Position numbers and translations under genes: made by a program. The notes below the pieces were generated by a model. The model had not been told where the DNA came from and did no database searches. It saw only the letters and a program-made list of their open reading frames with translations. DNA of 25,358 bases from a virus: the IMG/VR virus record IMGVR_UViG_3300003595_000001, positions 13,066 through 38,423 of that record, one strand, 5' to 3'. Positions 2,790-20,000 of this stretch are shown here, one piece after another. Position 1 is the first letter of the stretch; each line of letters starts with the position of its first letter.

Positions 2790-3878
2790 ATGGGTGCAAT
2801 TGTAACCAGTAAATTTAGAACTCAGAACTTGATGGTTTTCATCGACCAGTTTAAAACCACTGGTGTTGCGGCTGATGATAACTTCTTGTACTTAGGATTC
2901 GGACGTTCGGAAGCATGGTCGGACGACGTGAACGGAAACGACGAATCAAACGGTAACTTTATCTTACCAGACCCTCTTGACGAGGACGAGGCAAGATATT
3001 GGGCAGATATCGTTGGAGCAAAACGTATTCAGGACGATGATATTTCTCCTGTACTTCCTCGTATTGACTGGGACAACGGTGACCCGTATGCATTTGACGG
3101 TTCTGAAGGTGTAACAGGTATTCCTGACGCAGGTCGTTCATTTATCTCTATTGTTGGTTCTCATTCTATTGCAATGAATACAGAATACCGAGTGTATGAA
3201 TGTGTGAAAGAGCCTGGTGGAGCATATTGTGACAACTACACAAGCAATAGTGCAACTGATTGTGCTGCAGCTGGTGCGACTTGGACTGCAGAAACAAGTG
3301 GTTTTGGTAAATGTTACATTGGTGGTTCTTATTCAGCAATTCAAACAGATAGAACAACTTGTGAATCAACTACTGGTGGACTTTGGTTACCAAACGCTGC
3401 TTCTAATAGTCCTACTGGTGCGACTGGTGACACTCAACAAACCGTTGCTCAAGTAATTGACACATTAGATGGTTATGTATGGAAATACCTATACAAATTA
3501 GAACTAAACGACATTATTAACTCAACTACTAACGACTGGATGCCTGTAATTTATGGTGACGCGGTTCTTGCTGGTTCTGAGCAAGCAGTGTTTGGTGATT
3601 CTAATGCGATCTTCTCTGCTAAGTGTCATCATGGATTGATTCACGTTCGCCTTGAAACTAGTGACGGTTTCCCTGATAACGATGACTTCCGTCAAATTGG
3701 TTTACTACGTAATCCAGAGTTAGACGGTGGTGGTTCTAAAGCGCAGTCTTCTGTGTATTCTGATGCTACTTTATCTTTAGAAGAAAATACTGGACAGTTG
3801 ATTTATTTGGAAAACAGACGTGCGATTACTCGTGCCCCTGACCAAATTGAGGACCTGAAACTTGTAGTAGAATTCTAA
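2790..3878 (+). CDS. 8: Baseplate wedge protein gp8
   Basis: This is a structural protein of the contractile-tail baseplate. In T4, gp8 is a dimer that binds gp7, gp10 and gp6 in each wedge. The 362 residues compare with 334 in T4. Recognisable gp8 signatures in order are AIVTSKFRTQN near the N-terminus (residue 3), FGRSEAWS near 32, PRIDW near 90, DGYVWKYLYKLE near 227, FRQIGLLRNPE near 300, and a C-terminal GQLIYLENRRAITRAPDQIE block, all with clear T4 counterparts. The middle has a Cys-rich insert with Cys 138, 147, 158, 175 and 191 ending in GGLW. T4 gp8 has a shorter version (C...C...GGKW, from memory). AGGAG seven bases before the ATG supports this start. Confidence 0.95.
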   Translation: MGAIVTSKFRTQNLMVFIDQFKTTGVAADDNFLYLGFGRSEAWSDDVNGNDESNGNFILPDPLDEDEARYWADIVGAKRIQDDDISPVLPRIDWDNGDPYAFDGSEGVTGIPDAGRSFISIVGSHSIAMNTEYRVYECVKEPGGAYCDNYTSNSATDCAAAGATWTAETSGFGKCYIGGSYSAIQTDRTTCESTTGGLWLPNAASNSPTGATGDTQQTVAQVIDTLDGYVWKYLYKLELNDIINSTTNDWMPVIYGDAVLAGSEQAVFGDSNAIFSAKCHHGLIHVRLETSDGFPDNDDFRQIGLLRNPELDGGGSKAQSSVYSDATLSLEENTGQLIYLENRRAITRAPDQIEDLKLVVEF

Positions 3879-9923: not shown

Positions 9924-12900
9924 ATGTCACATTATACAAACTCATCGTTTACATTAGACGAATTATTAAAAATCGACCAACAGAAGGAAGACTTTTTAGA
10001 TTCTTTGACCATTAAACTTTCAGACCCAGCATTGGGAATTAAAGACTTAGCATTGATGCTGAAATCTTTGGAGATTATGGATAATATGGAGCATTTAAAC
10101 GCTTACCGTCAATTCATTATCAACCTTGCTAATAAGTCTGCTGACTTTACCACTCCTAACGAACTAGTAAACAACGGTGACATTTCTATTGAATATATTA
10201 CAAGCAATATTGTACAAAACCCTAATTTTGATTCTGACGCATTAGAAGTTGAAATCGCCAAATCTTCAAACTTCGAAGTAGGAACTGACATTGCAATGCC
10301 TTGGGCAAACGGAACTACGTATAAATTCGATACATTAATTGCAGAAGGAACTAATATTATCTCAGGAATTTCTGACGGTAATGGCGCGACAGCAGTTTGG
10401 TTTAATTCTACACTAAAACCTAATACACAATACAAATTATCATATGATTTAGTTATTAATGATGTTGGTTGGGACTTACCTAACGGTGCTAAGAACATGG
10501 TGGACGTTCTTTCTGAAGATGAAATGGTATTCTCGGAAAGTGGTGGTGGACCAGACCCAATAACATATGTTGTATCTGTAGTTGAAGATGCAAATATGAT
10601 ATTACCTACTTGTGATGGAGTCATTGTACCATTCGACACCTCAATCCCGGATTATAACAACGCGTTTCCTGCTATGGAACTCGCTTGTACTGGTTCTGGT
10701 GGAGTTTGGGTAGAAGGTAACATTAACGACCCACTTACACAAAATCACGACATTATTCCATACAACGTAGTTGCTCGTGAAGGTGATACATTAATCTTTA
10801 CAAACCCTTCGACAAACTACTTATTACACAATGCAGTATCCGACGACAACATCTCATTTACTTCTCCTGATATGCCGCCTGGATCTAATTGGTCTTGGGT
10901 TGTTGACGGATACCATGATATTTACTTCCATTGTACTTTCCATCCATTAGAAGAAGGAAGGTTACTTACTAAAACTGACCATAGATACGTTTACAATATC
11001 GACCACGGGTTGAATAAAGGTGATACAGTTAGAATGCCTATCAACTATGGTACTATGGAAGAACTACCTTCTTTATCAAATTCATACTTCATTAGTTTGC
11101 AAATGGACAACCCATGTACCTCAATTGGTGGTGTTGGTAGTCAAACGAACATAGAATCGTTATACCACAACTTATCTATTGGTGACGTTGTTTCATTCCA
11201 ATCTGGACCAGAAAACGTCACAGATACATCAAGTTCGGTTGATGTAACATTTTCGGGAGGAAACGCCACACTTGAGGCACAGGCGTCGGTTGTTATTCAA
11301 AATGGTATTGTAACATCAATTGCGTTAGAAGATAACGGAACTTGTTCAAACACAATATACTCAGACGAAGCAACTTGTGTTGCCAACTCAGAAACTTGGA
11401 CACCACAATTAGCGGTAGGTGCTGGATATGAATCTGCTCCATTATTATTTATCGCCGGTGGTGGCGGTTCTGGAGCTACTGCAATAGCAACATACGACGG
11501 TCGTGTAGTTTCTACTATCAATATAAACTACGGTGGTGGTGGTTATACATCACAACCTACTGTACAATTTACAGGTGGTGACCCAACTACTCCTGCAACA
11601 GCAACTGCCAATTATGACGCAGCCACTGGGCAAATTAACAGCATTACTATTACGGACTCTGGTGTTGGATACCAAACAACCCCAACCATTACTATTGTTG
11701 GTGGTAATCCAACCACAGCAGCTCTGTTTGAATGTTCTATATCTGGTTCTATATCTGCGGTTACATTAACAGCAGGTGGTTCTGGTTATGGTTCAGACGG
11801 TTCGGTGATTTTTGGAGAAAAGGCATGGGAAACGTTTGAAATTTCTGCTGTTGTAAAAGGACAAGAACAAGTTGACATTTTCCTAGACGACGTGAACCAA
11901 ATGGGACATATTCATACAGTCACTATGACTACTGCACAGTTTGATAATGTTAAGTTAGGAAATAACGAAGTTATAGCAACGAACGCAGATAATACAGGAC
12001 ACTCTCACGATTGTACATTTACTTGGGACTTAACTCTAAACGGAGGACTTGGCGGAATTTGGTTAGTCGGAATGACTGGCAACCACACGCACGGATTAGA
12101 TGTATATAACGAAGTATCTGGTGGTACTAAAATTGAATTAGTAAACTTCGGTCATTATCATGAAATTCTGATCACCGAAGCAGAAGAAGCAACACTAAAG
12201 GCAGGTTTGCTAATTGTGACTGGTGATAACCCAGACGGAACTACTGCGCATGACGGAACTGGTGTTGTTATGACTAAAACGTCAGACTTTGGTACTTCAG
12301 ATCCTCAGCATTTCCATACAGTTGAATTTGGTTGCGTTGATGCAGTAAATGATGTTTACGCAATTACTGTAATTGATCAACACATCCATGACTTTGGTCG
12401 TGTTTGGTATCCTGGATCGTTTAGTTTCTCAATATCACAATGGAACGACGGTTCTTCTAGTGCTGGAAGTAACCCAGCCTTTATTGAACTGCCTTTTGCG
12501 GATATTCCTGGTTATGTTAAGAAAGAAAAGGGTATATATTCTATAAATCACGGGTTGGTTCAAGGTCAACGAATACATTTCCAGAACATTTTTAATGGAA
12601 TTCATCATGGTAATACAAACTATTGGGTAGAATCTGTAATAGACGCAGATAATGTTTCTGTTACAGAAACAATTATTTATCCTCTTGCAGGTGCTCCAGG
12701 AACTACTCCTACTATTCATAATGTTATTGAAGAGTACACGGTTGTTGCAGACTTAGCATCGTACAGATTCCAAGTTGAAAGAGATATTACAAACCACATT
12801 GGTTCTGCTTACGTAGAAGGTGTGCAGATTGAATGGTCTAGACCTAACACAATTGAATCAAACTTACACGGATTAGTTGTTGGTGATGTTGTACAGTTGC

Positions 12901-15900
12901 CTTCTGGTCCTCAACCTTACACTCCATCAGAACTTCCTGGTGCTATGCGTGACCATACAGTTATTGCTATTGGTGATGGTTATGGTCCTACTGAACATAT
13001 GGAAATTATTGTTGATACGCAAACTACTATTACGTTTGCTGATCCAAACCTTTCTGTTGTTGAAGGTGCTCAGAACTCTCCGTGGTATTGGTCTTGGTGG
13101 GACAGAACCGCTGCATCATATGCTCCGTATCAAAGAGATGAAGCAGTTTACCAAAGTTTTGGTGACGTAACACTATACGACAGTATTACTGGTGAAAAGG
13201 CTGGTTTTGAATTATTCCGTGGTGGTACATACAAATTTACAAATAATGCATGGAACCCTTCTGGACATATTACACAGATTGACCCTTCAACGGGCAATTT
13301 AGTTCCTATGTACATGCACGCTGCTGGTATTAAAGCAATTCCAGGTGCAGGTTGGGACAACCTAGTACAAGCAGGTATGACACATAGTGCATGCCAAGAT
13401 GGTGTATCAGGCCTCGACCATTATCATTGTGTATCAATGAGAGCGAACCACGGTCTAACTATCGTTTCTGGTGACCATAACCCGTTTGTTAATACTACCG
13501 AAGAGCCTGGCACGTGGGTTGGTCCCGAACCTTTCCCAGTTTGTATGGGACTTGGTGGTTGGTGTGAAGAACTAGACGTTGACGGTTGGTACTATAATGG
13601 TATTGACGATGAGTCTGTGTGTTCTGCACTTAACCCAACGGGCGATGTTGGTTTGGCACAATGGAGAGGTCCACAATTTATTGGTAACTTCTCTAAAGAA
13701 TTTACATGGACAGTTCCTGAAGACTTTGGTCTTACTGGTGCTGACGGTGTTACTGGACTTGGTCCGTTTGTTGCTCCAGGTGAGTTAAACTTAGCATACC
13801 ACGTTGAATCATACCAAGGACTATATAAATTTGATAAGTCTGGTATGATTGAAGGAACAAACCCTATTATTAACATATACCGTGGTGGAGTTTACAGATT
13901 TAGACTTAATGCTCCTGGTCACCCTTTCTACATCACAACCGACAACGGATCTAACTTTACTCCTGGTTCATACTTCGGTGAGTACACTAACGGTGTTGTT
14001 GGTTCTCGAGCTGTTACTGGTTACGGACCAAACGAAGGTGTTACTGGTCAATTTGGTGACGACGACGTTGAAGTATTAGAATTTACAGTTCCTATGGACG
14101 CACCCGATACGTTATATTATCAATGTGAGTTCCATTCATCTATGATTGGTACGTTAAATGTTATAGATTTACCTATTGTTGATGCAGGTGATGAAATTGT
14201 AGTTTACTACCATCACGGACAAGATAACATGTGGACTCCATTATGGATTAAGGACAAGATTGTTGTAGACAACGGTTCTGGTCCAAACTTCTTCCAAGTA
14301 CAACCTATTCCTGAGAATTCGTTCCCAGTGAAGGGAACTCAGGCGGATGTTACTGGATTAGGTAACTTGATTACTGGTTATGGTGCAGGAGCAATCCCTA
14401 AAGCACAGGCAATGGATATTGAATTCGGTTCACTTTCATACTTAGACCCAGTCGCCTTGACCGCCGGAATTGGTCAAGAGACATTCTTAACCACAACTGG
14501 ACTTGTTGGTACTAGTAAATTCTATATCTCATTAGATGATACAGAACGTTCTAATATTGAAATGACTAATGTGTTGTTACAAGAAGCACCTTGGTCGGAA
14601 AATGGTTCTTTCGAAATTAGTGCAGGTCAGGCATTTACTACTGACGCGGTTGTTGGTGGTAATATTGAACAAATCGTAACAGGTTCTGTCATTGACGGTG
14701 ACCAATATGAAGTTGGTTATGAAATCATTGAAGGTTTTGTTGATCAATTTGGTGGTAATTCTGGTACTGTTCAACTGTCGTTAATTGGTGACACTACGGT
14801 TACTGGTAACTTTAACACAGACGCAGGAATGTACTCTGAAACGTTAATTGCTCCAGTTAATACTACACATATGAAACTTACTGCAAGTGGTGCTGGTAAA
14901 GTAGATAACGTTTCACTGAAGCAACGTGTATCAGGACAAAATGCTTGGTATCTTGGTGATGGTTGGACTGTTAATACTGATGGTCAAGCGTATTGCGACG
15001 GTTCTGTTCAAGGACGTACTGAAATCAATCAGACTGTTAATATCCAAGAAGGTAAATTGTATGAAGTTAAATATACTTTAGCAAATACTGACCCAGAAGG
15101 TGATGGTTCTCAAGGACGTTTACAATTAGCATTGGGTACTAACCCATACAACTTAATTTCTAATTGGAATTTTGATGCTAGTGGTATTAACATCAATTGG
15201 AATTCACCAGGAAGTGCATACACAATAGATAGTGCAAATGCTAGGTTGAATTTTGAAAACTCAAATGCCGACGGAATTACTTACACTTTCACTGATAACT
15301 TAAATAACATAGTTGATTATGAAATTACTATGGAAGTGTTATCAGTAACAGGTACGGTTCATAATTTCCAAGTTGGACCTGGACCTCAGGCAAACCATTA
15401 TCATACTATCGATTTGCAACAGTCGCAGTATGACTTTATGATTGCCAACGAAGGTTCTTCTCTTACATTGCAACAGTCTGATACTACTCACGCTGCTTAT
15501 TATACGCATACGTTCTCTCTTGCGTTTGATAGCACAGTAGAAACTTGTACTATGCAATTGGGTTACTCGCAAGATAATATGTGTTTCCTTAATGACGGTA
15601 CTCCAGATCCATCAAATACGACATCTACGGATTGTTTATCTGCTGGAAATACTTGGATTCCAACACAACCTAACTACGACTATTCTTGTTCGTTTGTTGA
15701 TTTTGATAACCTACAAAACGGTATTACTAATCAATTAACAATGACAGAATTGACGCAAGACGGTGGTGCCGGATTACCTGCTTCTGATGTTCATAATATT
15801 GTTCTTGGATTTGCTAATGGAGTTCTAACGGTAATATCAGACGAAAATGATATTGCATATGACGAAATTACATTACTTACAGCAGATTCTGGTATTATTA

Positions 15901-16931
15901 TTACTTCTCAGACGTTCTTAGAAGGTCATGATGAGATTATCAAAACTGGTATTACAACTACTAATTCAGATATGACAGTTTCATTAGGTCAGGGTGCTAA
16001 TATGGTAACTGGACCTATGGTTGATTCTGTAGGTTTACATAACTTCGTTCTTTCTGGTGCCATTGGTAATACAATTACTATTAACACTAACGGTTCTGGT
16101 ATCATTGGTTCTATTAAGATGAAAGAAGTTCAAGTTCCTGTACTAGACCATCATTCTACTGGTGTTGTAAATGAAGGTGAAAAGACATACTTCATTCGTG
16201 CTGGTGGTTATGATACTAAGTTACACTTTATTGGTGATGTGGACAAACGTCCAGTAGAAACAGATATTCCTTTCTACTACAGCAGAGGTTTCAAAGGTTC
16301 TATCGATACAGTTACAGTTAAAGAAGTTAATGAAAATTGGACTTTTGCTTCTGAAGAAGGTGGTAGTTCTTACATCGATAATGACAACGGTGTAATTGTT
16401 ACTAATGGTACTGATGAAGCACATAGAGGTATTGCTCATATTTCGTTTGACGTAGTTGAAGGAGATAATTATAAATTATTCTTATCTGTTGATAGACCTA
16501 CTAGTTCTGTAATTAAGGTTGGACCTGCACCTGACAATAACCAATATGGTGAAATGTTAATTGCTGATTCATCTAATGATTCTAACCCTACCGCTCATAG
16601 AGATATGGTGTTTACTGCTGGTGCAACTGGAGTGTGTTACTTAACTCTTGCGACTACTGGTAACGGTTTTACTTACTGGGATCAAGTTTCAGTTAGAACT
16701 ATTCCTAACCTTTCTTCTGACGAATACCTATTGTTAGGTCGTGCGTTGAATGTGTTTGGTATGCCGATCGGTAGTGAGTCTAGATGGAAGCAACATAATA
16801 CAGATTCAGAAAACCTTGACTTTAATGGTCGTGTGGTTGCTGGATTTAGAACTTTAGAAAGTTTTGGAGAGAATGTTATTGAAACGTATTACGATGATGT
16901 TGATGAGGTTATTGATAATACACCAGTTTGA
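9924..16931 (+). CDS. Giant mosaic tail protein with cupredoxin-like domains
   Basis: A probable tail-fibre or baseplate-surface protein of 2335 residues. Visible domains in order: helical N-terminus (1-85); beta-sandwich with carbohydrate-binding flavour (about 90-190); plastocyanin-like domain (about 280-350; His302, Cys337, His340, Glu343); HGL..GD repeats near 353, 411, 872 and 968; Gly-Tyr repeats GGGYTSQPTV and GVGYQTTPTI (about 436-630); paired HxH block (662-822); degenerate cupredoxin-like domain (about 1095-1300); second complete plastocyanin-like domain (about 1310-1415; His1333, Cys1401, His1404, Met1407); several CBM4/9-like jelly-roll stretches (about 1550-1770 and 2130-2250); another HxH block (1825-1862). 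Cys-W mini-modules occur near 474-490 and 1887-1911. There is no signal peptide and no enzyme motif. It uses AGGA at 9913-9916 for initiation. Metal and sugar binding are inferred from motifs. Confidence 0.88.
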   Translation: MSHYTNSSFTLDELLKIDQQKEDFLDSLTIKLSDPALGIKDLALMLKSLEIMDNMEHLNAYRQFIINLANKSADFTTPNELVNNGDISIEYITSNIVQNPNFDSDALEVEIAKSSNFEVGTDIAMPWANGTTYKFDTLIAEGTNIISGISDGNGATAVWFNSTLKPNTQYKLSYDLVINDVGWDLPNGAKNMVDVLSEDEMVFSESGGGPDPITYVVSVVEDANMILPTCDGVIVPFDTSIPDYNNAFPAMELACTGSGGVWVEGNINDPLTQNHDIIPYNVVAREGDTLIFTNPSTNYLLHNAVSDDNISFTSPDMPPGSNWSWVVDGYHDIYFHCTFHPLEEGRLLTKTDHRYVYNIDHGLNKGDTVRMPINYGTMEELPSLSNSYFISLQMDNPCTSIGGVGSQTNIESLYHNLSIGDVVSFQSGPENVTDTSSSVDVTFSGGNATLEAQASVVIQNGIVTSIALEDNGTCSNTIYSDEATCVANSETWTPQLAVGAGYESAPLLFIAGGGGSGATAIATYDGRVVSTININYGGGGYTSQPTVQFTGGDPTTPATATANYDAATGQINSITITDSGVGYQTTPTITIVGGNPTTAALFECSISGSISAVTLTAGGSGYGSDGSVIFGEKAWETFEISAVVKGQEQVDIFLDDVNQMGHIHTVTMTTAQFDNVKLGNNEVIATNADNTGHSHDCTFTWDLTLNGGLGGIWLVGMTGNHTHGLDVYNEVSGGTKIELVNFGHYHEILITEAEEATLKAGLLIVTGDNPDGTTAHDGTGVVMTKTSDFGTSDPQHFHTVEFGCVDAVNDVYAITVIDQHIHDFGRVWYPGSFSFSISQWNDGSSSAGSNPAFIELPFADIPGYVKKEKGIYSINHGLVQGQRIHFQNIFNGIHHGNTNYWVESVIDADNVSVTETIIYPLAGAPGTTPTIHNVIEEYTVVADLASYRFQVERDITNHIGSAYVEGVQIEWSRPNTIESNLHGLVVGDVVQLPSGPQPYTPSELPGAMRDHTVIAIGDGYGPTEHMEIIVDTQTTITFADPNLSVVEGAQNSPWYWSWWDRTAASYAPYQRDEAVYQSFGDVTLYDSITGEKAGFELFRGGTYKFTNNAWNPSGHITQIDPSTGNLVPMYMHAAGIKAIPGAGWDNLVQAGMTHSACQDGVSGLDHYHCVSMRANHGLTIVSGDHNPFVNTTEEPGTWVGPEPFPVCMGLGGWCEELDVDGWYYNGIDDESVCSALNPTGDVGLAQWRGPQFIGNFSKEFTWTVPEDFGLTGADGVTGLGPFVAPGELNLAYHVESYQGLYKFDKSGMIEGTNPIINIYRGGVYRFRLNAPGHPFYITTDNGSNFTPGSYFGEYTNGVVGSRAVTGYGPNEGVTGQFGDDDVEVLEFTVPMDAPDTLYYQCEFHSSMIGTLNVIDLPIVDAGDEIVVYYHHGQDNMWTPLWIKDKIVVDNGSGPNFFQVQPIPENSFPVKGTQADVTGLGNLITGYGAGAIPKAQAMDIEFGSLSYLDPVALTAGIGQETFLTTTGLVGTSKFYISLDDTERSNIEMTNVLLQEAPWSENGSFEISAGQAFTTDAVVGGNIEQIVTGSVIDGDQYEVGYEIIEGFVDQFGGNSGTVQLSLIGDTTVTGNFNTDAGMYSETLIAPVNTTHMKLTASGAGKVDNVSLKQRVSGQNAWYLGDGWTVNTDGQAYCDGSVQGRTEINQTVNIQEGKLYEVKYTLANTDPEGDGSQGRLQLALGTNPYNLISNWNFDASGININWNSPGSAYTIDSANARLNFENSNADGITYTFTDNLNNIVDYEITMEVLSVTGTVHNFQVGPGPQANHYHTIDLQQSQYDFMIANEGSSLTLQQSDTTHAAYYTHTFSLAFDSTVETCTMQLGYSQDNMCFLNDGTPDPSNTTSTDCLSAGNTWIPTQPNYDYSCSFVDFDNLQNGITNQLTMTELTQDGGAGLPASDVHNIVLGFANGVLTVISDENDIAYDEITLLTADSGIIITSQTFLEGHDEIIKTGITTTNSDMTVSLGQGANMVTGPMVDSVGLHNFVLSGAIGNTITINTNGSGIIGSIKMKEVQVPVLDHHSTGVVNEGEKTYFIRAGGYDTKLHFIGDVDKRPVETDIPFYYSRGFKGSIDTVTVKEVNENWTFASEEGGSSYIDNDNGVIVTNGTDEAHRGIAHISFDVVEGDNYKLFLSVDRPTSSVIKVGPAPDNNQYGEMLIADSSNDSNPTAHRDMVFTAGATGVCYLTLATTGNGFTYWDQVSVRTIPNLSSDEYLLLGRALNVFGMPIGSESRWKQHNTDSENLDFNGRVVAGFRTLESFGENVIETYYDDVDEVIDNTPV
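10761..10980 (+). other. Cupredoxin-like domain 1 coding segment
   Basis: Residues about 280-350 read as the metal half of a plastocyanin: a REGDTLIFTN strand, LLHNAV carrying His302 (compare plastocyanin PHN), then YFHCTFHPLEEG carrying Cys337 and His340. The axial Met is replaced by Glu343 when aligned with domain 2. Such a Glu could alter or abolish copper binding. Confidence 0.6.
13860..14170 (+). other. Cupredoxin-like domain 2 coding segment
   Basis: Residues about 1313-1415 contain IYRGGVYRFRL, then GHPFYI (His1333), then TLYYQCEFHSSMIG with Cys1401, His1404 and Met1407. That is the full His-Cys-His-Met ligand order of type-1 copper sites, with C-x2-H-x2-M spacing. No copper binding has been shown here; the assignment rests on motif order and the flanking strands. 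Confidence 0.65.
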
Positions 16932-17041: not shown

Positions 17042-20000
17042 ATGTCTATTACATTGGATACAATTACCCATGCGGTCAACTCGTTTAACGACATTCCAGA
17101 CGTTACGTTCAACTCTATTGACATTGGCGAGTTTGCTAACGACGTAGAAATTTATACTAATACCCCTGCGGTAATGATTCCTTCTAAATTGAATGCTATG
17201 GCAGGTTCAATGAAGACTTGGTTGAATACCAATATTGCAGCACCATTAGAAGCACAACAAAATACCTTTAAAACGGAAGTAGTTGTACGTACTAATGAGG
17301 CAATGACTGCTGTTGAAACTTATATCAATAACGAAGTAAAATCTTTTGTTAATGATATTTTTGTTCCGTGGGCAAACAACTCTGGTGTATTACTTGCTGA
17401 TAATGCTAATACATTAGAAGGAAACGTTACTACTACATTAGGTCAATTAACAACAGACTATACTATCCACGTAGCAGCCCAAGACGCTATTATCGCTCAA
17501 GCACTTCAAAGTTTTGAAGATAACCTTGCTCAATACACTGGTGATTCTGGTGCTGGTTACTCTATTCATCAAACAAATCAGTTAATTGCTGACCAAACGA
17601 TGACCAAAGATATTTCTTTAGATAACTATAAGTTTGACGAAAACGGAAATGTTACATATTTCAGAGAAGGTGATTTTGAAACTCATCATATCGTATATAA
17701 CGCAGAAGAACAAATTATTTCTTACGGCGAAACTTTATCTATTTCTGGTGAAGCAAGACCTTTTGTAAATCATCAAATCCTAGGGTATGATGAAAGTGGA
17801 CTTAAAACTTCGATTGAGCAAGTTAAATCATACAACTTCTTCATCAACACAGACGCATCTAATATCAAATCTTTTCGTGCTACGGGTAATGAGAAAAACG
17901 GTGATGCAGCTTTGGACTTAACTATCCTTAATAACACTTCTGTTGCAGACACGGACAACCCCTCAATTTTATTAACAAGAGGCACGCCGGTTATTATGAC
18001 ATTCGAAGGAATTATTGCTGGAGATTTTGTTTCTATAGAAGACGGTTCTGGTAACGTTTATGATGATGGTGTTAGTGGACAATATGCCATGGATTCTGAC
18101 ACTATTACATTCAAACCATATAAGTCGTACTGTCATGACGGTGTTTCTGGTGCTACGGGTTGGGGTGTTGTTTCAAACATGGGTGCTTCTGAAATTGATG
18201 GTGATAATTCAGGCGCTTTCCAAGACCCAGACTTATGTGAAAAATACTTCACACCAAATGTTTCTATTTTGGACGACTTTACACGTGAATATGAGTTTGT
18301 AACTGCAGGGGAAACTTATGACAGTGCACTTTCTGATGGTTTAATTTATAAAGTATTCATCTCCGACGACTCAGGTTTCTCTGATACATATTCATACACA
18401 ATTGACCACAACAGTAAGTTAGGTACTGGTGCTATTGTGAACGCAGTATATGACGACGGTTGTTCTGATATCACAATTACAAATGGTGGTAACGGTTTCT
18501 CAAACGGAACTATTGCTCGTATATTTGATCAAGATTCAGTTGCCACTCCGGCAGTATGTGCTATCACTACTGGTGATGGTTCTATTGGTTCGGTCAATAT
18601 CATAAATGGTGGTGCAGGGTACAACGGTTTCTGGAGAATTAATTTACCTGATATCGGAGGATTAGGTGCTCATACACACATTATTGAAGTTTCTCAAGCA
18701 GAAGTGAATCAAATTAAAGCAGGTTCACCTATTACAAAAACAACACTAGACGCAGGGCATACTCATGATGTTACAATGTCATGGAACTCATTTGTAGAAG
18801 AATTTAATTTTGATGTATATGATGTTGTTGCGGGCCATGAACATGGACCGATCTCTTCTTCTAATGAAATTAACCCTGATATTCAATTACAGTTTATCGG
18901 TGATGGCACAAACGCCGCTGGTTATATTGTATTAGACGAGTCAGGAACGGTTGTTGATGTTATTATTACTAATTCTGGTATTGGATACACTAATATAACG
19001 GTTCAAACTTTAGGTGGTGCAGCCACAACGGATGCTACATTAAGTGGAAACTTAGTAAATGGTGCGGTTGTTTCTATTAACGTAAATACTCCAGGAGCAG
19101 GTTATACTGACTCTACTGCGGCAACAATCAATGTAGGAATTACATCAAGTTTATTTAACCCTTCTGAATTTACAGCTAAAGTGGGTGATACAATCCACTT
19201 CACTAATAATGATGCTGCAGCTCATACAGTAGAAAACGTTGAAGGTGCCTTTGCTTCTCCTTCGTTACCACAATCTGCTACTTGGGATTATGTTATTACT
19301 AAAGACACAGATATTACTGATATTTACAACCTAACGGGTTCTGGTATCGCACAAGACGGTAGAATGTATGTACGTGAAAATACTACATTCATTGATATCG
19401 TTTCAAATACTGGTGGTGGTTTACGTGCTAAAGGTACTATTAACGCTGCAGGCACATTGACTAACGTTGCTATTATAGAAAAAGGTTTTGGTTATACAAA
19501 TGCAGATTCGGTAAGAGTTATTGACGTATCAGGTACTGGTGAAGGTGCTTACGCTACTGCAAATATAGACCGTAAAGTGATTGATATTACTATTGATAAT
19601 GGTGGTGCTGGTTATGATGCAAATACTAGAATTCTTGTAGTTGACCCTTCAGGTAGAGACGTAAATGGAACTAAAGTATTTGGTTCTGGTGCTGTTATAA
19701 CCCCTACTATTGACGCAAGTGGTACTATTACTGCTATTACGGTTAATAATCAAGGTTCTGGATACACAGACGTAGACTTCATTGTTCATGATGCTTCTGG
19801 GTTGGGTGCTGGTTTAGTATTAACTCCAAGTGTAGATTCATATGTAGAAAGTATTACTATGACCGCTCGTGGTGCTGGTTACACAAACCCTATTTGTATT
19901 GTTTCTGATTCAGTAGGAACATATGGTAATGGAAATGATGCAGGTAATTCTACTCAAAATAACGTTGCTGGTAACTTATTCACATCTACTGCTATCCTTA

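Follow-up and report, generated by a model that had tools for sequence, protein, structure and literature searches.

P0001, a protein of 2335 residues encoded by a marine virus, carries two cupredoxin domains whose predicted metal ligands are conserved almost without exception. The stretch of DNA analyzed here (the window; 25,358 nucleotides) is part of a 38.4-kb virus record, IMGVR_UViG_3300003595_000001. We conclude, with a probability of about 0.72, that P0001 belongs to the tail or baseplate of a marine T4-like myovirus, is mosaic in make-up, and displays the two domains as metal-binding modules. An earlier note on this DNA, made from the sequence alone, had described plastocyanin-like copper-site motifs within cupredoxin strands in two segments of a giant phage tail protein. 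The eight residues it named (H302, C337, H340, E343, H1333, C1401, H1404, and M1407) are all where it placed them; the ligand set of domain 2 is complete for a type-1 copper site, and the axial position of domain 1 is occupied by Glu.

Two cupredoxin domains in P0001

The pattern C-x2-H-x2-[M/E] occurs exactly twice in P0001, at residues 337 and 1401. A chance origin was rejected on the basis of 2000 shuffles of the residues of the protein, which gave 0.028 such motifs on average and the full H-C-H-M set in 0.65% of cases. Searches of Pfam, NCBIfam, and PDB with the whole protein detected neither domain; the cupredoxin signal emerges solely with isolated domains or with family profiles. Used in this way, profile searches of PDB with either domain put cupredoxins on top, in agreement with the strand context described earlier.

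For domain 2, a profile of 23 family members (A5) matched 9cck (E 1.8e-5), plastocyanin (2.2e-5), and amicyanin (1.2e-4), followed by pseudoazurin, azurin, auracyanin, and rusticyanin, and copper proteins made up almost all of the 60 PDB matches listed. This result came from the wider profile, a narrower one (A3) being weak against PDB (best cupredoxin E > 1). In an alignment with azurin-type proteins, the YYQC..H..M segment of the family pairs with the Cys-His-Met loop. The AlphaFold2 model of the domain is a beta sandwich with a mean predicted local distance difference test score (pLDDT) of 79.8. In Foldseek, rusticyanin was the best match (E 2.6e-5) and all 50 matches listed were cupredoxins or cupredoxin-fold domains, while the VIA comparison with the cupredoxin domain of a nitrite reductase (2dv6) gave a Z of 11.2 and a root-mean-square deviation (rmsd) of 2.5 over 100 residues. 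The predicted fold is thus a Greek-key beta-sandwich matching solved cupredoxins.

For domain 1, a profile of 25 sequences matched 9cck (the C-terminal cupredoxin of a nitrite reductase; E 1.9e-4), 5fc9 (0.0089), amicyanin (0.048), and also plastocyanin, and a wider profile to which copies from the neighboring protein P0002 were added reached a best PDB E of 9.9e-6. In the amicyanin alignment, HCTFHPLEEG of domain 1 lies opposite HCTFHPFMRG, so that Glu343 occupies the position of the axial Met. Type-1 copper proteins have Met, or a Gln or Leu variant, at this position; domain 1 has Glu in 36 of 36 copies, with His, Cys, and His present. Its AlphaFold2 model is again a beta sandwich (mean pLDDT 76.6), and nearly all of the matches listed for it were cupredoxins, the best of them weak (Foldseek E 0.035; Z 5.5 to 9cck, and 5.4 to 5fc9 and nitrosocyanin). 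Because a Z below 8 may, by the guidance of the comparison tool, reflect no more than a common arrangement, the assignment of domain 1 rests mainly on sequence. When domain 1 alone was compared with the azurin-type set, profile against profile, its alignment was too shallow and the probability was 3.6. The earlier note had begun this domain at residue 275; it is a cupredoxin, as proposed, but its first strand lies near residues 214-221, owing to an insertion in the beta1-beta2 loop that differs in length and number among relatives. Taken together, the sequence profiles, whose PDB matches are almost exclusively copper proteins with E reaching about 1e-5, and the predicted folds make it nearly certain that both segments are cupredoxins. 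The coordinates of the features are collected in Table 1.

Table 1. Features of the window, with positions counted from its first nucleotide.
Feature	Position	Strand	Evidence
gp8-like baseplate wedge gene, fixes the genomic context	2790..3878	+	PF09215 E 1.4e-35; phrog_977, phrog_438
P0001, 2335-residue mosaic baseplate/tail protein with both cupredoxin domains	9924..16931	+	open reading frame; PHROG tail and virion-structural matches; gene position
Cupredoxin domain 1 (residues 214-355; the loop between beta1 and beta2 has a Cys-containing insertion)	10563..10988	+	PDB profile matches; model
His302, first equatorial ligand of domain 1	10827..10829	+	sequence; H in 36/36 domains
C337-T-F-H340-P-L-E343, Cys and His ligands, Glu at the axial Met position of amicyanin	10932..10952	+	C, H, E in 36/36
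Weak half-match to the domain 2 profile (GFELFRGGTYKFTNNAWNPSGHI), candidate third degenerate cupredoxin	13161..13268	+	8.0 bits; relatives score 7.3-12.3 bits at this place
Cupredoxin domain 2 (residues 1289-1421), a relative of the cyanophage gp9 C-terminal domain	13788..14186	+	phrog_677 E 2.8e-18; Foldseek
His1333, first equatorial ligand of domain 2	13920..13922	+	GHPFYI, opposite GHNWVL in the azurin-type alignment
C1401-E-F-H1404-S-S-M1407, Cys, His, and Met ligands, amicyanin-length loop	14124..14144	+	sequence; conservation
P0002, neighboring virion-type protein of 1157 residues	17042..20515	+	PHROG virion and connector matches
Degenerate cupredoxin in P0002, without Cys-His-Met/Glu ligands	19160..19390	+	PF00127 about 18.6-18.9 bits (cut-off 21.2); domain 1 profile E 2.4e-4

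The plastocyanin part of the earlier description is imprecise. Against the NCBIfam plastocyanin equivalog TIGR02656 (cut-off 87.85 bits), the degenerate copy in P0002 scored best, at 18.1 bits, and a relative of domain 1 scored 12.7 bits; both domains fall far below the cut-off, and in fold the closest proteins to domain 2 are rusticyanin, auracyanin, and the cupredoxins of nitrite reductases. Against Pfam PF00127 (Copper-bind; cut-off 21.2 bits), 9 of the 23 members of the domain 2 family matched at E <= 0.1, and neither domain of P0001 did. These scores also bear on the idea that the domains are host plastocyanin genes captured as auxiliary photosynthesis genes. Cyanophages do carry petE (phrog_515 is named PetE), and a short protein of Synechococcus phage S-SCSM2R that bears the domain was deposited as PetE. 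However, that protein consists of a fibre-type N-terminus, common to a P-SSM2 fibre, and a cupredoxin of the domain 2 family, and its annotation as plastocyanin looks wrong from its sequence. The domains of P0001 are likewise embedded in a protein of the baseplate cluster, a context that contradicts capture of host petE; we rejected this explanation as having next to no likelihood.

Conservation of the ligands

Some of the early search patterns contained Cys or His, and the ligand counts were redone with baits independent of the ligands, namely the N-terminus of gp9 and, for orthologs of P0001, the upstream neighboring gene P0003. Among the gp9 proteins fetched by their N-terminus, H-C-H-M was present in 77 of 77 complete proteins. 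Among the P0001 orthologs, it was present in 24 of 25 copies of domain 2, the lone exception being a change of His to Asp by one base, in a copy whose other differences from a relative amount to 2 of 408 bases, and H-C-H-E was present in all 36 complete copies of domain 1. Judged from these sequences, domain 1 has a fixed Met-to-Glu change at the predicted axial ligand. In a set of 64 nonredundant members of the domain 2 family (median identity 37%), which was gathered by profile and is hence mildly biased, each ligand was found in 63 of 64 and the four ligands were among the five least variable columns, while members diverge to about 26% identity over most of the domain. A disulfide was ruled out as the reason for the conservation of Cys1401, since domain 2 contains a single Cys.

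The earlier note had left two possibilities side by side, copper binding at the virion surface or reuse of the fold for structure or receptor contact. The near invariance of the ligands in the unbiased samples favors the first, in the form of a metal site in use, over a fold that was simply reused. Under reuse, the domains would be purely structural or receptor-contact sandwiches on a metal-free virion, with the ligands kept for folding or by descent. There is precedent for such a role: the ectodomains of ephrins are copper-free cupredoxin folds, and beta-sandwiches are commonly reused in the tail proteins of virions. P0002 itself contains a degenerate cupredoxin, kept in relatives despite the loss of Cys and the second His (both missing in all four sequences read), and the half-match at 13161-13268 in P0001 is possibly a third, degenerate cupredoxin on the evidence of its profile scores. 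Yet where the site has been lost, in P0002, the ligands have been lost as well, whereas in domain 2 four residues distant in sequence stay nearly invariant as the domain drifts, and the gp9 set retains all of them in every member. We therefore regard a metal-free virion as unlikely. Conversely, sequence conservation makes a functional metal site in domain 2 highly probable and one in domain 1 likely, and copper is the probable metal of domain 2.

Distribution of the domain 2 family

Relatives of domain 2 were found in 340 phage isolate records, nearly all of them Synechococcus or Prochlorococcus phages with a few other marine phages, and in at least 454 viral contigs. The family forms the C-terminus of cyanophage gp9, the baseplate wedge tail fibre connector (phrog_677). 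It also lies inside fibres of P-SSM2, with two copies in PSSM2_298 and one amid the collagen-like repeats of PSSM2_028, and in a protein of the podovirus P-SCSP2 and the fibre of phage Bellamy. T4 gave no such match in this analysis. Bacteroidota and Verrucomicrobia supply the cellular relatives, secreted or lipoprotein-like proteins that keep the ligands and have no clear home in Pfam. A fold search of BFVD with domain 2 returned 'beta-sandwich proteins' of Pithovirus LCPAC302/LCPAC304 and Marseillevirus LCMAC201/202 (E 3.6e-7 to 3.6e-5); judging by these predicted models, giant viruses may have related modules.

Published evidence places the family in virions, in a phage other than this one. 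S-SZBM1_206, a baseplate wedge protein of cyanophage S-SZBM1 whose C-terminus belongs to the domain 2 family, is among the proteins detected by mass spectrometry in CsCl-purified S-SZBM1 virions (PMC9146016).

Domain 1 has a narrower range. A tblastn search of 50,697 phage records with domain 1 gave no match, so that all copies of the domain in this analysis come from viral contigs of metagenomes that are relatives of the present one; a scan of bacterial genomes found no relative of it either.

Genomic setting

A viral contig of 78 kb matches the region identically at the stretches compared. Among its products is a gp23 capsid protein of the T4 type (E 2.4e-100), whose nearest relatives are those of Pelagibacter phage HTVC008M (51.8%) and Methylophilales phage Melnitz (50.1%). 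Genes on the contig follow a T4-like order, several of them assigned by eye: spike, PAAR-like, gp25-like, gp6-like, gp7-like, gp8, P0003, P0001, and P0002, and then neck (gp13/gp14-like), terminase, sheath, and tube genes. This order makes P0001 a baseplate/tail gene by position and bears out its earlier designation as a phage tail protein. Besides the cupredoxins, the protein has matches to PHROG virion-structural families and a weak match to DUF642.

Several other features of the cluster were recorded. P0009 (23590-25308; 572 residues) appears by eye to contain a U32-peptidase-type domain and, after it, a methyltransferase-like one, an unusual gene between tail and neck genes. Short Cys-containing inserts with endings like C-x(3-6)-GG-x-W recur across neighboring structural proteins, at residues 255, 485, 1207, and 1904 of P0001, 158 and 191 of P0005, and 147 of P0003; the insertion in the beta1-beta2 loop of domain 1 is one of them. 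HxH motifs number 15 in P0004 (902 residues; 10-2718), 8 in P0001, and 3 in P0002, their locations including residues 661-819 of P0001 and 543-598 of P0002. In the fibre tips of T4, iron is bound by HxH pairs, and by analogy the baseplate cluster may hold iron sites beside copper-type sites.

Proposed role and alternatives

Most likely, to judge from the ligand sets, the two domains are virion-borne metal-binding contact modules, with copper in domain 2 and copper or zinc in domain 1. The virion would leave the reducing cytoplasm of the host and then acquire metal, with seawater or the periplasm of the host as the source. Domain 2 would hold copper in a type-1 site formed by His, Cys, His, and an axial Met, and domain 1, with its axial Glu, would hold zinc or carboxylate-ligated copper. 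Zinc is a candidate for domain 1 because a nitrite reductase in which the type-1 Met was changed to Glu (M150E; 2afn) is titled as zinc-containing. Loaded with metal, the domains would serve as rigid contact modules at the periphery of baseplate and fibres, for adsorption or fibre attachment, the metal being required to shape the binding face. The C-terminal part of T4 gp9 is the attachment place of the long tail fibre, so the role that suggests itself most readily is to attach a fibre or to contact the host; we put a role in contact or adhesion at even odds.

Several points weigh against this proposal. The ligand-free copies that persist in P0002 indicate that the cupredoxin fold can serve without metal in this phage; domain 1 has a narrow family and a model with modest structural matches (Z 5.5, Foldseek E 0.035); and neither a redox partner nor a receptor was found in this analysis.

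The sites might also act as a redox trigger or in host recognition linked to copper. In the redox version, a copper center in the baseplate would sense or exchange electrons with a partner on the host surface and help to trigger irreversible attachment. The complete type-1 ligand set and amicyanin-length loop of domain 2 are in keeping with this idea, as is the likeness of its fold to electron-transfer proteins, with rusticyanin, auracyanin, and the cupredoxins of nitrite reductases among the nearest. But nothing points to a partner or a redox chain, fast electron transfer would be poorly served by the axial Glu of domain 1, and the fibres in which the module recurs differ greatly in context. 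A role in electron transfer or as a redox trigger in general is possible but has low odds, below those of a contact role, and redox-active sites of the specific kind just described seem quite improbable. A broader proposal, that most marine T4-like cyanophages and the present lineage display true type-1 copper centers on their baseplates and tail fibres and that metal loading or the redox state of copper controls adsorption or the infection trigger, strikes us as doubtful; if true, it would add to phage entry a metalloprotein step not described before.

The predicted metal sites would have wider consequences. The fold is ancient and well known, but its employment in virions, as a module that is widespread and conserves the ligands, appears to be new to the open-access literature, in which (leaving aside subscription papers and preprints) our search found no paper describing cupredoxin domains in phage virion or tail proteins. 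From the distribution of the ligand motifs, hundreds of ocean phages probably carry metal sites in their particles, seemingly undescribed before. Cyanophages are among the best-studied marine viruses, and a predicted metal site that is strongly conserved in gp9 as well as in several of their tail fibres has apparently gone unnoticed in the literature searched. If copper is bound, virions would constitute a pool of protein-bound copper in seawater, and copper would be a testable factor in phage adsorption, in parallel with the iron-based 'Ferrojan horse' idea. The findings also give a functional lead for a PHROG family so far defined by position alone, for which cultured cyanophages offer a ready test, and the fixed Met-to-Glu change of domain 1 would be a natural counterpart of engineered axial-ligand mutants.

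Comparison with known systems

Cyanophage gp9 (PHROG 677) carries the same domain as domain 2 of P0001 (profile-profile E 1.3e-23 between gp9 and the domain 2 family), with H-C-H-M and a location in the baseplate. It differs in that gp9 has about 410 residues with the domain at its very end, whereas in P0001 domain 2 lies mid-protein within 2335 residues and its last strands follow a longer loop. The N-terminal part of gp9 was sought in P0001 and is missing, the phrog_677 match covering only positions 316-410 of the 412 in the profile; P0001 is therefore not gp9 itself. Pfam PF25489 (At5g54830-like), a family drawn from a plant protein, gave subthreshold matches in 16 of the 23 members of the domain 2 family (best E 4.6e-6), and domain 2 of P0001 scored 15.9 bits against its curated cut-off of 27.

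Rusticyanin, auracyanin, and the cupredoxin of three-domain copper nitrite reductase share with domain 2 the fold (Z 11.2 to 8.7), the order of the ligands, and the axial Met. They are free or enzyme-linked electron carriers with proven copper, at 15-18% identity to domain 2, where copper is predicted.

Domain 1 matches the fold of nitrosocyanin, a red copper protein, at Z 5.4 over 97-98 residues with a high rmsd of 7.9-8.3. Nitrosocyanin has a carboxylate ligand, which may lie at another position than the Glu of domain 1. With amicyanin and the Nitrosopumilus cupredoxins 9cck and 5fc9, domain 1 aligns at H, C, and H, and it has the CTFHP motif in common with amicyanin; unlike these proteins, every phage copy of domain 1 has Glu in place of the axial Met, and domain 1 has the loop insertion.

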